Assembly: GCA_023663085.1 (NCBI GenBank)
Contig: JAMPIB010000040.1
Location: 1-35,737, forward strand
Source of the DNA: Ruminococcus sp.
Lineage (GTDB): Bacteria; Bacillota; Clostridia; Lachnospirales; Lachnospiraceae
Reading direction: 5' to 3'
Length of the DNA stretch: 35,737 nucleotides
Position numbers and translations under genes: made by a program. Below the pieces are notes generated by a model. The model saw only the letters and a list, made by a program, of their open reading frames with translations, was not told the origin of the DNA and searched no databases. Shown piece after piece: positions 6,036 to 10,659 of this stretch (the first letter of the stretch is position 1; every line of letters begins with the position of its first letter).

Positions 6036-6653
6036 TCACTGTGCGGCAGGTACCTCGATGAATGCGAAAGTACCAAGAGATGTCAGATCTACTACAACAT
6101 GGTCGTCTCTGACTTCTGCTACGTTGAGGCTGTTCCACTGTCCATCAACCAGTTGATAAACCTGAACATTATTTCCGGTTTTAACACCCGGCATGTAGAA
6201 GTTTACGGTTGCTGTGTCGAAAGAAACGGATGCGCCTATTCTTGATACAGTCAATACTGTACCGCCCAAAGCAGCAGCCTGATCTTTGGCGGAATTAACC
6301 TCTGACAGATACGGTTTTAAAGTTGAAAATACCTGATTGCTGGGAGCGCCGTTGATGATAACTTTGCCGCCCTGTCCGATCGGTGTGGAATCTGTCAGGC
6401 CGGGAACCTCTGTAACGGCATTGTTCATATACTCACCGACAGTTTTATTCTCGCTTGCAGCAGCGGCTGTGGTAGCCATAGGGATACCGGAAGCCTGTGC
6501 AGCAAGAGCTATCGCTTCGCCTTCACGGTCAAAAGTTACAGTTACAGCTGCATCGCTGATCGCGCTGACGGTCGGTGAATCCGCAGCCATAACAGGTACG
6601 GAAACAATCATGGCAGCAGCCAATGATAATGCAAATAATTTTTTGATTTTCAT
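6036..6653 (-). CDS. Small secreted protein of unknown function
   Basis: The product is 205 residues with a clear Sec signal peptide: KIKK, a hydrophobic core LFALSLAAAMIVSVPV, and a likely cleavage after MAA at about residue 24. There is no lipobox cysteine, sorting signal or membrane segment after that, so it is probably released or loosely wall-associated. The mature part is rich in Ala, Val, Thr and Asn and looks beta-rich, with a last segment (about 150-200) that reads like a small beta-sandwich. AAGGAGG lies upstream of the ATG. It is on the same strand as, and 106 bp downstream of, the sortase-like gene, so it may be part of that surface operon or a separate unit. I do not recognise the family. 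Confidence 0.8.
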   Translation of the reverse strand: MKIKKLFALSLAAAMIVSVPVMAADSPTVSAISDAAVTVTFDREGEAIALAAQASGIPMATTAAAASENKTVGEYMNNAVTEVPGLTDSTPIGQGGKVIINGAPSNQVFSTLKPYLSEVNSAKDQAAALGGTVLTVSRIGASVSFDTATVNFYMPGVKTGNNVQVYQLVDGQWNSLNVAEVRDDHVVVDLTSLGTFAFIEVPAAQ

Positions 6654-6759: not shown

Positions 6760-7515
6760 TCATTCATAGATGATCCGGTTGATATTGCCGGCGGTATCTT
6801 TTATTAATACGGCAACGACAACAAGCTGTGTATCCGCATCTTTTTCCTTCTGTGTCGTTAAGGTGATCAGAAAATGATATGGATTGACAAAACTCCACCC
6901 TTCACGCAATTTCATATTCATATCGCGCGTATCATATATCGTATCCAGAAATGTCTGGCAGCTGGCTGGATCGGTAAAGTCATAACTGCGCAGCAGGCTT
7001 GTATTTTCCCGTTCATAAACAGCAAAAATCTCATATGTCAATACATTATCTTCGAGATATAGATAAATCGGCTCATGCGTTTCAAAAAAATCCAGATCCA
7101 GAAACTGATACAAATCCCCGAATAAGCCTTCTTCGGAGACAGTGGAATCGCCGTGTATCACCGTATTAAAATCACACATATTAGTAAGATTGGCAATTTC
7201 TATATAAGCACTTCCGGCCATGTCCTCTTCCGCGTAAAAATTATGGGTTTCATAAAAAGTATCCGATTCACTGTTTTGCAGGATGGGACAGTCGATATCC
7301 GTGCCCGGAATATAAAGCCAGGCAAAAATATCAGGATTTATCTCTTTTAATGTTGCAAAATCGACATATGCGTCCTGTGCGCTCTCTTCGATACGTGGCA
7401 TCTTGGAAGATGCTCCTTTCTCAGTATTTCCGGCGCATCCGCAAAGCGAGACAGAGATAAAAATAAGGCCGGTAAATATAAATGAGAAACACAAGTTTTT
7501 GTTTTTTATAAGCAT
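6760..7515 (-). CDS. Sortase-B-like lipoprotein lacking all three catalytic residues
   Basis: The 251 residues begin with a lipoprotein signal ending in the lipobox L-C-G-C (24-27), so Cys27 is the likely lipid anchor. The rest follows the class B sortase fold in order: INPDIFAWLYIPGTDIDCPI (59-78), a YETHNFY segment (88-94), the strand before the active-site His, an LFGDLYQF helix (131-138), a YEIFAVY strand and the last strands. In active enzymes the His lies in Y-G-H, the Cys in T-L-S-T-C, and the Arg just before LVVVA. Here these read H-G-D (121-123), T-L-T-T-Q (218-222) and Q-L-V-V-V-A (230-235). His, Cys and Arg are therefore all replaced, so transpeptidation is not expected. The start lies 4 bp past the LCP gene stop with AAGGAG upstream, indicating translation from a shared mRNA. 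A structural or substrate-binding role is inferred. Confidence 0.85.
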   Translation of the reverse strand: MLIKNKNLCFSFIFTGLIFISVSLCGCAGNTEKGASSKMPRIEESAQDAYVDFATLKEINPDIFAWLYIPGTDIDCPILQNSESDTFYETHNFYAEEDMAGSAYIEIANLTNMCDFNTVIHGDSTVSEEGLFGDLYQFLDLDFFETHEPIYLYLEDNVLTYEIFAVYERENTSLLRSYDFTDPASCQTFLDTIYDTRDMNMKLREGWSFVNPYHFLITLTTQKEKDADTQLVVVAVLIKDTAGNINRIIYE

Positions 7516-7519
7516 AAAG

Positions 7520-8524
7520 TCAGGACTCCTTTTTTTCGTAAAATATTGTAAGTATCATTTCATATAGCGCATTTTCATCCACATAAAATTCTTCAAATTT
7601 TTCTCCGAGGACTGTTTCGCCTTCCAGCGTATAAAAACTGTTTTCGTCAAATGTATACTGGCTGTAAAGAGACAGTAAGCGGGCAGCTTCTATCAAAGAA
7701 ATATCCGTGACCATATGCGGTTCCAGCGCTTTATAGAGATCGAGGGCTGTGCGGGGGTTCTTTTTAACAGCATCTCTGGCAACATCAAGAAAGGCTGTCA
7801 GATACTGCTTCTGCCTCGCCAGACGCATATCCGCCGAAGCGAAGATGTCGGTATTCCTGTATTTGACATACCAGAAGGCACTTTCACCCATAAGATGAAC
7901 CTGGCTGCCTTTTACCAGAGAAGGGTCACGTAAAGTGATATCATCCAAAACTGTGACGTCAACGCCGCCAACAGTATCATTTAATGCCATAATGGCACTT
8001 AAATTGACTGCGGCATAGCCATGGATGGGAATATCATAAAAAAGATGTTCAACTGCTTTAAGCTGATACTCGCAACTTTGCTCGCGGCCATCACCGAAAC
8101 CGTGTTGTAGATTGATCTGGGCGCGCACGGTCTGCAAACAGGTACCGTCATCTGCGTATACGTCGATATCGGTCATGGTATTCCGGTTGATCGCAATGAT
8201 CCTGATACTCTTATCTCTGGGATTCAGAACGGCCAAAAATAAAGCGTCTGACTGTCCGCCGCCTTCGTCATCTATTTCATAAGTTTCTATGTCGATAAGA
8301 TCCCGGCCCTGGTCAATTCCCATAATCAGAAAAGTCATAATATCATCGTTGTATTCATAGATTTCATTCTGGTATCTGATCTGTGCGGCCGGCTGTCTGT
8401 CCATACGGCTCTTCAGGCGGCTGTTTCCGATACCGGCAATTACGCCGATGCCGCCGAAAACAAGAACAGACAGTACAACAGGAACAGCAATGATTATGTA
8501 AAAAAACTTCTTCTTAGTTTTCAA
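7520..8524 (-). CDS. LytR-CpsA-Psr (LCP) family envelope protein
   Basis: LCP proteins are membrane-anchored enzymes that move lipid-linked glycopolymers such as teichoic acids or capsule onto peptidoglycan. The 334 residues show a short basic N-terminus, one membrane helix (about 7-31) and an outside LCP domain: FLIMGIDQGRD (65-75), SDALFL (92-97), AINRNT (111-116), a middle segment with GGVDV (186-190), and YRNTD with DMRLARQKQYL (222-242). The start is TTG, with AAGGAG 10 nt upstream; no ATG fits. The leader overlaps one of the 27-bp inverted repeats flanking the recombinase, so expression may depend on inversion of that segment. The last 90 residues after the LCP core are not recognised. 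The pseudo-sortase gene follows directly. Confidence 0.88.
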   Translation of the reverse strand: MKTKKKFFYIIIAVPVVLSVLVFGGIGVIAGIGNSRLKSRMDRQPAAQIRYQNEIYEYNDDIMTFLIMGIDQGRDLIDIETYEIDDEGGGQSDALFLAVLNPRDKSIRIIAINRNTMTDIDVYADDGTCLQTVRAQINLQHGFGDGREQSCEYQLKAVEHLFYDIPIHGYAAVNLSAIMALNDTVGGVDVTVLDDITLRDPSLVKGSQVHLMGESAFWYVKYRNTDIFASADMRLARQKQYLTAFLDVARDAVKKNPRTALDLYKALEPHMVTDISLIEAARLLSLYSQYTFDENSFYTLEGETVLGEKFEEFYVDENALYEMILTIFYEKKES

Positions 8525-8541
8525 TTGTTGTCCGCTCCTTT

Positions 8542-8568
8542 TTTCGCAAAATATCTTCTTTTACGAAA
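8542..8568 (-). repeat. Left inverted repeat / recombinase core site
   Basis: Read on the minus strand this is identical over all 27 bases to 9940-9966 on the plus strand. It consists of a 10-bp arm TTTCGTAAAA, a 7-bp asymmetric centre GAAGATA and a nearly complementary 10-bp arm TTTTGCGAAA, the layout of a tyrosine recombinase crossover site. It lies about 20 bp upstream of the LCP start and directly abuts its ribosome binding site. Confidence 0.85.
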
Positions 8569-8624
8569 TCAGTAAAAAGGAGGCGTCAGAGCGGGAAAAC
8601 ACAATATTTTTACTAAGTGGACGG

Positions 8625-8636
8625 TCTTTTTGACGG
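8625..8636 (+). repeat. Candidate recombinase arm-site repeat, copy 1
   Basis: TCTTTTTGACGG matches copies at 9813-9824 and 9845-9856, in the same orientation. It sits just past the recombinase stop codon, near the left core site. The recombinase has an N-terminal domain of the type that binds such sites. Confidence 0.4.
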
Positions 8637-8637
8637 T

Positions 8638-9786
8638 TTAAAGAATTGCGGAAAAATGCTGTCTGCTGAGAACATCATACCGTTTCATGAGTTCTTTTTT
8701 CTGCTGCATGGAGGGATGGACATATAAATTTAATGTAATGCGGATATTGCTATGTCCGAGTATTTCGCTCAGACTTTTGATATCCAGTCCCATGGCAACG
8801 CATCTACTGGCAAAGGAATGACGTAGCATGTGGAAATTAAAATATTCGAGATGACATTTTTGTAAAATGCTTTTAAAACGATATTGGATCGTGCGTGGTT
8901 CTGCCCATGGTTTTTTCAGCCCGCTTATTATATAGCAGGAGTCTTTTTTCTGATATGTGTGCAGCAAAGGGAGCAGACAGGGCGGTATCGGGATAATCCT
9001 CGCGGAATCGGAAGTTTTGGGCGATTGCTCGATAATATGAGTCATATTCTGGTCATATGCCGGATCGTGGACAGTTCCTTTGACGCGCAGCATATTGTGT
9101 GTAATAGACAGAACACCTTCTTCTATATTAATATCACCCCATTTCAAAGCGCTCAATTCTCCGATACGAATTCCGGTATGTAGAGCGAGCAGGATACCGA
9201 GACAAGTATCGTTTTCGCGGTTATCATATAAATAGCGTTCCAGTATGGCCAGTGTGTTTTCTCCGGGAAGGATGATCTGGCGGGAATGTTCTCTGGTAAC
9301 GGGATTACAGGGAATGGGAAAACAGTTATCATATCGGCGGTTCATGTAAACAATGATCCTGCGGACGACGAGACAGATCTGGGATAAATAGTTTCTGGAA
9401 AGAGACTTTTCTTCTGCATTACCTGCGATCTGCCGGACAAAATTCTCCATGATCTCATGATTAAAACTGTCTATTTTTATATTTCCCAGACAGGGGATGA
9501 TATATTTATCCGTTATCTGATGATAAACCGCCAGAGTACTGTCTTTCCAGTTGTTTTTCTCTGCCTGCATCCAAAGGCGTACGGCTTCTGACATATTCGG
9601 ATAATGCGTAATAGATTCGTGTCTTTGCGCCTGTCTTGCAATATTTATTTTTTCTTTTACTTCGCGGTAGGTTTTGCCATAAACAGAACGATATTTCCTT
9701 CGTTCACCCGGCATGACTGTTATTTTGAACCGGCCCTCCCAGCGTCCATCTTTTCTTTTGTAAATATTTTCTCCTCTTTTAGCCAT
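8638..9786 (-). CDS. Tyrosine recombinase (phage integrase family), probably a DNA invertase
   Basis: The 382-residue product has the full three-part layout: an N-terminal arm-binding domain (1-50, NIYKRKDGRWEGRF), a SAM-like core-binding domain (about 60-165) and a catalytic domain. Catalytic residues are visible: Arg207 in HTGIRIGEL, Lys257 in SPKTSD, His319 and Arg322 in HMLRH, His345 in LGHSN and the nucleophile Tyr355 in LNLYVHP. The start follows GAAAGGAG. The gene lies alone between perfect inverted repeats with no excisionase, relaxase or phage genes nearby, which argues against an integrated element and for a self-contained inversion switch. A decayed integrative element that left only its integrase is the alternative. 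Confidence 0.93.
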   Translation of the reverse strand: MAKRGENIYKRKDGRWEGRFKITVMPGERRKYRSVYGKTYREVKEKINIARQAQRHESITHYPNMSEAVRLWMQAEKNNWKDSTLAVYHQITDKYIIPCLGNIKIDSFNHEIMENFVRQIAGNAEEKSLSRNYLSQICLVVRRIIVYMNRRYDNCFPIPCNPVTREHSRQIILPGENTLAILERYLYDNRENDTCLGILLALHTGIRIGELSALKWGDINIEEGVLSITHNMLRVKGTVHDPAYDQNMTHIIEQSPKTSDSARIIPIPPCLLPLLHTYQKKDSCYIISGLKKPWAEPRTIQYRFKSILQKCHLEYFNFHMLRHSFASRCVAMGLDIKSLSEILGHSNIRITLNLYVHPSMQQKKELMKRYDVLSRQHFSAIL

Positions 9787-9812
9787 GATATAAAACTCCT
9801 TTCAGTTGACGT

Positions 9813-9856
9813 GCTTTTTGACGGCCATGACAGCATAATGTGCAGCTTTTTGACCG
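9813..9856 (+). repeat. Candidate recombinase arm-site repeats, copies 2 and 3
   Basis: GCTTTTTGACGG (9813-9824) and GCTTTTTGACCG (9845-9856) are spaced 32 bp, about three helical turns. They lie between the recombinase start and the right core site, and the second overlaps the -35 box of the outward promoter. Recombinase binding could thus also repress that promoter. Confidence 0.5.
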
Positions 9857-9877
9857 TTCTTGTATAAAAGCTATTAT
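9850..9877 (+). promoter_or_regulatory. Outward sigma-A promoter inside the invertible cassette
   Basis: TTGACC (9850-9855), a 16-bp spacer and TATTAT (9872-9877) match the housekeeping consensus well, with a start expected near 9884. It points right, across the core site. On the opposite strand 9873-9878 reads TATAAT and could serve the recombinase, although its -35 is poor. Confidence 0.6.
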
Positions 9878-9937
9878 AAAGTAGGATGAGTTTATTGATT
9901 TTTTTAAAAAAAGGTTGTATCCTAAAATAGGTTTTTA

Positions 9938-9973
9938 CCTTTCGTAAAAGAAGATATTTTGCGAAAGGTTTTT
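9938..9973 (+). terminator. Hairpin with T-run containing the right core site
   Basis: CCTTTCGTAAAA (9938-9949) and TTTTGCGAAAGG (9957-9968) form a 12-bp stem with one G-U pair and a 7-nt loop, followed by five T. It would stop transcripts from the cassette promoter in the present orientation. The left copy of the core site lacks the T-run and leads straight into a ribosome binding site. Confidence 0.6.
9940..9966 (+). repeat. Right inverted repeat / recombinase core site
   Basis: This is the exact inverted copy of 8542-8568: arms TTTCGTAAAA and TTTTGCGAAA around the 7-bp centre GAAGATA at 9950-9956. Outside these 27 bases the two flanks differ, so the repeat has sharp ends. Confidence 0.85.
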
Positions 9974-9995
9974 ATTATAAATTTTTCATATCATC

Positions 9996-10022
9996 TTAAT
10001 TTTGTGCCTCGTTTCCCGATAT
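9996..10022 (+). promoter_or_regulatory. Candidate flagellar sigma-D/sigma-28 promoter
   Basis: TTAA (9996-9999), 15 bp, then CCCGATAT (10015-10022) is close to the TAAA-N15-GCCGATAT consensus. It precedes the gene at 10054, next to the flagellar cluster. Confidence 0.4.
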
Positions 10023-10053
10023 ACAATATAAAGAGACAATGGGAGGAAAGAAC

Positions 10054-10659
10054 ATGAATATAGATTTTCGCGGAATTGCAAATTCCTATTCGGGTGGCAT
10101 GCTGTTATCACACCGCGGGTTAAAAAGTACAGAAGAGAGATTAAAGCGTCAGGAAACGCGGGATAACCAGATTGCTTTTTATGAAAACCAGAAAGCAAAT
10201 TTAAAAAATATGAAATGTGATACGGTAGAAGAGATCGCCAAAAAATTGGAGATGTTTCATTCTTATGAGGACAGTATCGCGCAGGTGAAGGCGGTTTATA
10301 ATAATGAACAGATGATGCATATCATGGACGAAGCGCGCGAGATGAGCGAAAAGATTGCCAAAGCGGCAGAGAAAATGGAACCTAAAACGCCGGAGGAGAG
10401 GCTGGAAGAGCTTGTGGAAGAAGCTATGGGTATCGAAGAAGGCGGCGGTATGCTGGAAGAGGTTCTGGAAGAAGCGGCGCGGATGCAGGAGGAAATGCAG
10501 GAAGAGTTACAGGAAGAGATGCAGAAGGAATTACAGGAGGGAACTGCGGAAATGCAGGAAGATCTGCAGGATGTGTTGCAGGAGCAGATCGAGGCGGAGC
10601 AGAGTGCGGAAACGGAAGGCTTAATTGTTCCGGATAAAATTTTTATAGAAAATTCGTAA
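10054..10659 (+). CDS. Coiled-coil Glu/Gln-rich protein of unknown function, perhaps flagellum-associated
   Basis: The ATG at 10054 is used because GGGAGGAAAG sits just before it; the upstream in-frame ATG at 10039 lies before that site. The 201 residues have no signal peptide or membrane helix. An N-terminal motif (NIDFRGIANSYSGGML) is followed by predicted helices, and residues about 120-190 are an extreme acidic helix built from short repeats of E-E-M-Q and E-L-Q type, probably a long coiled coil. The repeat DNA also opens an Arg-rich frame that is only a shadow. I do not recognise the family. A sigma-28-like promoter and the flagellar-rod cluster next door suggest, but do not prove, a link to motility. 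Confidence 0.8.
   Translation: MNIDFRGIANSYSGGMLLSHRGLKSTEERLKRQETRDNQIAFYENQKANLKNMKCDTVEEIAKKLEMFHSYEDSIAQVKAVYNNEQMMHIMDEAREMSEKIAKAAEKMEPKTPEERLEELVEEAMGIEEGGGMLEEVLEEAARMQEEMQEELQEEMQKELQEGTAEMQEDLQDVLQEQIEAEQSAETEGLIVPDKIFIENS

Follow-up and report, generated by a model that had tools for sequence, protein, structure and literature searches.

What does a complete tyrosine recombinase gene do when it lies alone between perfect inverted repeats, next to a cell-surface operon headed by a LytR-CpsA-Psr (LCP) gene in a gut bacterium? This question was raised by the window analysed here, i.e., the whole stretch of 35,737 nucleotides from Ruminococcus sp. (contig JAMPIB010000040.1), for which the original prediction proposed a self-inverting cassette that may switch the LCP operon by turning an outward promoter. 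The features on which the analysis was built are collected in Table 1.

Table 1. Features of the cassette and of the genes on both sides of it, with positions counted from the first letter of the window.
Feature	Position	Strand	Basis or remark
Conserved secreted protein, third operon gene	6036..6653	-	Order X-srtB-LCP recurs in relatives
Pseudo-sortase B	6760..7515	-	TIGR03064 1.1e-31, under its cut-off; His, Cys, and Arg substituted at the catalytic positions
LCP (LytR-CpsA-Psr), head of the operon that is probably switched	7520..8524	-	PF03816 1.1e-18
LCP ribosome binding site AAAGGAG	8535..8541	-	Immediately outside the left site
Left recombination site	8542..8568	+	Dyad half-sites TTTCGCAAAA / TTTTACGAAA, 7-nt spacer TATCTTC
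CCGTCAAA motif past the recombinase stop	8629..8636	-	Candidate arm-type binding site
Tyrosine recombinase, 382 aa	8638..9786	-	Sole long ORF between the repeats
CCGTCAAA motif right before the recombinase start	9817..9824	-	Candidate arm-type binding site
Outward sigma-A-like promoter TTGACC-16-TATTAT	9850..9877	+	Recombinase 5' end; 10/12 consensus positions
Terminator-like hairpin from the right site, then TTTTTATTATA outside the cassette	9937..9969	+	Sequence
Right recombination site	9940..9966	-	Left site repeated exactly in inverted form, identical spacer
Glu/Gln-rich protein gene on the far side	10039..10659	+	No Pfam match above cut-off

The two arms of the repeat were identical at 27 of 27 positions and enclosed 1,371 nt, and 200 dinucleotide-preserving shuffles of positions 8000-10600 gave exact inverted repeats of at most 17 nt. 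Each 27-bp repeat was itself a dyad, with two 10-bp half-sites flanking a 7-bp spacer; a dyad of half-sites around a spacer is the form of a tyrosine-recombinase core site. The enclosed gene displayed the Pfam domains PF00589 (4e-24, 85.8 bits against a cut-off of 27.1) and PF14659 (4.6e-8), together with the motifs TGIRIGELS, HMLRHSFAS, LGHSNI, and LNLYVHPS, which we take to be the catalytic R, HxxR, H, and Y regions, and was assigned as a predicted tyrosine recombinase of the phage integrase family. The layout that had been described, a complete recombinase alone between perfect repeats with one repeat abutting the LCP ribosome binding site and the other preceding an unrelated plus-strand gene, was borne out by the exact arms, the single ORF, the AAAGGAG directly adjoining the left repeat, and the 72 nt between the right repeat and ORF 10039-10659; the outward promoter placed within the segment corresponded to the promoter-like site of Table 1. 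The segment thus carried the traits of an inverton, namely short inverted repeats at its bounds, an open tyrosine recombinase gene inside as the putative cognate enzyme, and a promoter, by consensus match, leading out of one end only. It did not fit an integrative (conjugative) element, its sites being inverted and the recombinase lying alone between them, nor an insertion sequence, as it encodes a tyrosine recombinase instead of a DDE transposase and occurs in one copy in the assembly.

The operon beside the left repeat encodes a sortase-like protein devoid of the catalytic residues. Alignment to solved sortase B chains placed Asp, Gln, and Gln in the His, Cys, and Arg columns, which we take to be the sortase B catalytic residues; with all three replaced, the window copy does not qualify as a class B sortase. 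The Cys column never held Cys, and the Arg column never held Arg, in the 29 copies covering these columns (the window's own and 28 others, from L038, L039, and loci between L114 and L142). An LCP gene and a gene for a secreted protein of no known family adjoined the pseudo-sortase wherever the sequence retrieved around it extended to them, L134 being unmatched for the secreted protein. Neither Pfam nor, at E <= 0.001, a fold search against the PDB gave a match for the third operon gene of the window, whose AF2 model had a pLDDT of 78.7. A second LCP homologue, 62% identical, was present in the same genome (G000:C3:37401-38240). On the far side of the cassette, the 10039 gene, for which 40 of 60 genomes from the genus had a homologue, is probably a bystander.

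As deposited, the promoter-like site points to the 10039 gene, a point that was absent from the original prediction, and it would point to LCP once inverted. Only 17 nt separate the edge of the left repeat from the LCP start codon, which leaves no room for another promoter, and therefore the LCP promoter must lie within or beyond the cassette. Because the cassette promoter faces away and the space before LCP is so short, the deposited orientation probably represents a low or OFF state for the operon. In this orientation the hairpin at the right site and the following TTTTTATTATA may stop the outward transcript. No terminator was found in the window from the recombinase stop to the left site (two of 79 family loci have one), so the OFF state may be leaky. 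We also considered whether the cassette orientation alters how strongly the LCP ribosome binding site is masked, which was rejected since the accessibility of GGAG computed by folding was 0.002 in the deposited orientation (70-nt leader) and 0.002 in the inverted one; with a 120-nt deposited leader the value was 0.05.

The cassette turned out to belong to a large family situated beside many different genes, which the original prediction had not noted. The sample comprised loci L004-L025, obtained by genome search, the best 80 of 573 confirmed related loci, and the window itself (L003), giving 103 loci; the weaker and mostly partial genome-search matches L026-L032 were left out. Removal of six duplicates (L034, L088-L091, and L093) left 97 loci, and removal of L107, whose flank was too short, left 96. 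An inverted pair around the recombinase scoring at least 15 was present in 79 of these 96 distinct loci, window included, and one scoring at least 20 in 60, as compared with 8 and 1, respectively, of 300 controls in which the flanks came from different loci. Direct pairs reached a score of at least 15 in 15 loci and of at least 20 in two. Among the 17 misses, L023 failed through a boundary artefact, its perfect 29-nt pair lying beyond the tested range, and the one-gene layout of about 1.4 kb between inverted dyads was consequently counted in 79 of the 96 loci plus this one. The segment between the repeats measured 1,241-1,678 nt in the family (median 1,385). A sigma-A-like promoter pointed outward at the recombinase 5' end in 66 of the 79 loci and at the 3' end in two, with a median of 35 nt from promoter to repeat; inward calls numbered six at each end, and coding windows gave 0.8%. 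These calls are consensus matches, and 13 loci, among them the LCP-linked L005 and L038, missed the threshold. An apparent subset with a promoter at the 3' end was an artefact of reading the wrong strand, and the corrected counts stand.

Comparison of the two sites within each locus pointed to what the enzyme may do with them. The spacers agreed at 7 of 7 positions in 73 of 78 loci, and yet the family contained 63 distinct spacers, with between-locus matches in 17 of 3,003 cases. The paired sites of a locus differed at 15/546 positions in the spacer, 165/1,404 in the half-sites, and 242/468 just outside, rates that in absolute terms are biased because the repeats were found by similarity, so that the spacer agreement is partly selected for. 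The telling part is the lower mismatch rate in spacers than in half-sites, which would fit strand exchange across a shared overlap. Of the 79 loci, 34 had the CCGTCAAA motif at the 5' end and 29 had it at the 3' end, with 17 loci carrying it at both; all its family occurrences but one ran in the gene direction, and coding windows contained it in 4 of 632 cases. These motifs are perhaps arm-type integrase sites.

Orientation was compared in 70 locus pairs with homologous flanks, 58 of which had the cassette in the same orientation and 12 in opposite ones, the latter falling into four groups: the window and L038 vs. L039, beside LCP; L064 and L068 vs. L069, beside a LytTR response regulator at L064; L049 and L051 vs. 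L102, beside a helicase-like gene at L049 and L102; and L012, L018, and L019 vs. L067, L099, and L109, beside a TnpB-like gene at L099. The last two groups could be paralogous. Opposite orientations that had appeared for L009 and L010 vs. L033 and L035, and for L015 vs. L016, were artefacts of wrong-strand reading. Three Enterococcus raffinosus plasmids shared one cassette orientation. The strongest case was L039, from Lachnospiraceae bacterium 28-4, where the operon of LCP, pseudo-sortase, and secreted protein corresponds to that of the window. Along this scaffold come LCP, a site, the cassette, 200 N, the inverted cassette, a site, and the other flank; the two cassette copies were 99.87% identical over 1,509 nt, and the gap opens within the second site, at the first base that differs between the outer half-sites (TTGCGAAA vs. 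GTACGAAA). This would fit what an assembler leaves when both orientations are present, and the scaffold could also be a real inverted duplication. Among 11 contigs that begin or stop close to the cassette, L037 ends at the site edge and L105 starts inside the site, which may likewise reflect mixed orientations; nine end elsewhere. Taken together, both parts of the original proposal, self-inversion and promoter switching, gained comparative support from the within-locus spacer match, the single outward promoter, the opposite orientations with homologous flanks, and the two apparent orientations on the 28-4 scaffold at the LCP operon.

The deposited orientations were unevenly distributed. In 62 of the 79 loci the nearest ORF past the 3' side of the recombinase (at least 90 aa, within 700 bp) pointed away from the cassette, and the same held for the promoter side in 35; loci with such an ORF on one side only had it on the 3' side in 31 cases vs. 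seven on the promoter side, which indicated that deposited genomes mostly carry the promoter away from the likely target. A run of T past the dyad was more frequent on the promoter-facing side (24/64) than on the other (10/64; sign test p = 0.007, post hoc), which suggests that transcripts may be terminated on the dead-end side. The 31 vs. 7 asymmetry would also agree with a former switch locked in one orientation in the window genome, its recombinase perhaps silent, and this explanation gains further from the agreement in orientation among copies of one cassette and from L041, a relative in a neighbouring clade, which is without repeats. Nevertheless, unused sites are expected to decay, whereas neither window site has a mismatch and the recombinase ORF is uninterrupted, catalytic motifs included, and we consider a locked switch rather unlikely.

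The genes adjoining the cassettes were diverse. There were 110 outward gene candidates (108 plus the two of the window), 87 of which were scanned with Pfam; these came from both cassette sides and in part from related loci, and the Pfam families among them included response regulator (9), LytTR (8), HTH_3 (7), LCP (4), and CpsB/CapC (2). In the tree, which was read for the neighbourhood of the window alone, with L017 and L019 entered in the wrong reading and other such loci absent, the window fell in a group of seven rows with support 99/95. Within this group L005 also adjoins an LCP gene and the outward neighbour of L033 had no Pfam match; therefore, like cassettes stand beside different genes. 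Relatives also differed at the insertion place: 10 of the 29 loci from relatives that have a 10039 homologue (L145 and L147-L155) had uvrA, this homologue, and mreB contiguous, too close together for a cassette or an operon to fit in, and the window has operon and cassette between uvrA and the 10039 gene. In genome G032, operon and cassette stand beside the 10039 homologue and mreB (L005 and L146; uvrA beyond reach), and in L144 a homologue of the third operon gene stands alone beside the 10039 homologue; uvrA and mreB were both beyond reach in 17 of the 29 loci. No sites or small invertons were found upstream of 28 cassette-free LCP loci over the 0.9-1.5 kb scanned, and the same scan recovered the sites in the positive controls, the window and L129.

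Matches were also present in 946 plasmid or phage records. Eleven of the 30 listed were examined, and 10 of these 11 had an inverted pair scoring 15-29; the direct-pair score equalled the inverted one in L180, and the eleventh record, an Enterococcus gilvus plasmid, scored 17 for the inverted and 11 for the direct pair. The megaplasmids of E. raffinosus and E. gilvus (L177-L181 and L187) kept the cassette layout with differing half-sites, and the E. gilvus plasmid carries WxL, DUF916/DUF3324, and LPXTG genes after the recombinase. The record of Ruminococcus albus 7 plasmid pRUMAL02 (L184) had five matching places and two genes for site-specific integrases with about 0.8 kb between them, adjoining a helicase-associated protein. 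One identical cassette was found in six genera (L087-L091 and L093) and at about 98% in a faecal "phage" record (L185), on an apparent mobile element and in one orientation in all seven copies; on the 3' side of the L087 recombinase stands an erm(B)-type methyltransferase. Exact copies in IMG/VR numbered zero for the window site and zero for the site of this erm(B)-linked cassette.

Such distribution bears on a second alternative, a minimal mobile element consisting of an integrase only, with the repeats as ends for insertion and excision instead of inversion sites. Related recombinases do adjoin different genes, one identical cassette is spread over six genera, arm-like motifs lie at both cassette ends, and the recombinase is similar to ICE and phage integrases, its catalytic domain resembling PDB 6emy, listed as an Int protein, which we take to be Tn1549 Int. 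An ICE-type integrase of this kind serves integration and excision, and the window segment differs from such a system in its inverted sites and in having no transfer genes. Excision requires direct repeats, whereas the window sites are inverted with matching spacers and high-scoring direct pairs were confined to the two loci mentioned above; moreover, the cassette is present once in the genome, and the conserved outward promoter would have no role in excision. This reading was judged unlikely. As for a recombinase acting elsewhere, in excision or resolution of another element, with the repeats as regulatory binding sites only, nothing direct favours it beyond the ability of integrases to bind sites near their own gene, and it is highly improbable, given that no third copy of TTTCGNAAAA-N7-TTTTNCGAAA was found beyond the two window sites in the assembly (3.44 Mb, 95 contigs), and that the spacers agree better than the half-sites, which strand exchange needs and binding alone does not.

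We therefore favour, with a probability of roughly 0.78, a self-inverting promoter cassette that controls the LCP operon. The recombinase would pair the two inverted dyad sites and swap strands across the shared 7-bp spacer, and this exchange would flip the 1.4-kb segment including the recombinase gene and its single outward promoter. With the promoter toward LCP, the LCP/pseudo-sortase/secreted-protein operon would be strongly transcribed (ON); in the deposited state, with the promoter toward the 10039 gene, the right site and its T run may terminate the transcript, and the operon would receive at most read-through from the recombinase (low/OFF). The family is very likely functional as a switch. 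For the window organism, represented by one assembly with one cassette orientation, we infer inversion and an effect on LCP expression.

Several known systems share part of this design. Hin of Salmonella is a serine recombinase that needs an enhancer. Its recombinase gene and an outward promoter lie inside the invertible segment, as in the window cassette, which in contrast has a tyrosine recombinase, dyad core sites, a single gene, and many unrelated loci; Hin and the H segment are named in the accessible part of PMC5903667. The same portion of that article gives a putative fimbrial invertible segment of Providencia stuartii that encloses a recombinase ORF and adjoins a surface operon, like the window cassette, but it measures 844 bp, has 14-bp imperfect repeats, belongs to an enterobacterium, and is one putative case there. 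The RecV switches of Clostridioides difficile (excerpts of PMC5903667 and PMC2784873) resemble the proposed switch in their tyrosine recombinase and its control of phase-variable surface genes in Clostridia, whereas their segments are of 154-230 bp, nearly all intergenic, and one recombinase serves several of them. According to the sections available of PMC11892184, which counts a recombinase if it intersects the inverton or lies within 5 kb, the Clostridia inverton group 139 is linked to nearby tyrosine-type recombinases (invertase group 35) and its orientation shifts were seen in reads; the link to a tyrosine-type recombinase in Clostridia is shared with the window cassette, although in the two examples whose coordinates are printed the repeats are only 205-227 nt apart. 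Invertase group 35 is possibly the same recombinase family as that of the window. In Bacteroidales, invertible promoters drive resistance genes and, as far as the text obtained of PMC8748976 goes, resemble what is proposed for the window cassette in promoter inversion, a local invertase, the OFF orientation favoured in most samples, and spread on mobile elements; they differ in the invertase, which lies outside and adjoins the invertible region, and in the phylum. Neither the family of one-gene cassettes nor a switch for an LCP/pseudo-sortase operon was found described in the literature searched, which included few subscription journals, so that the claim that no switch was known for such an operon held within that literature; PMC10939037 and the part at hand of PMC4859950 contained nothing bearing on an earlier report of the family, and PMC11868660 is, from the part at hand, a review.

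Since many similar cassettes stand beside quite different genes in relatives, the cassette looks like a reusable on/off switch. We lean, with some reserve, towards regarding it as a portable and self-contained switch class, in which a one-gene integrase-type recombinase has moved before many unrelated operons in Clostridia and enterococci, bringing along inverted core sites of its own, arm-type sites, and one promoter that leads outward; the operons in question are LCP/pseudo-sortase, LytTR and HTH regulators, capsule genes, and WxL/LPXTG surface operons. The programs commonly used for inverton surveys probably cap segments at less than 1.4 kb, and at this size the class is perhaps too long for short-inverton surveys. 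Enzyme, sites, and promoter in one gene cassette would make a complete plug-in phase switch, reused beside many operons of gut Clostridia, and the recombinase sequence together with its flanking dyads would predict phase-variable operons from genomes without reads. The locus offers a testable link between phase variation and an LCP/pseudo-sortase operon without assigned function, and the cassette family may show a route from integrases to invertases.
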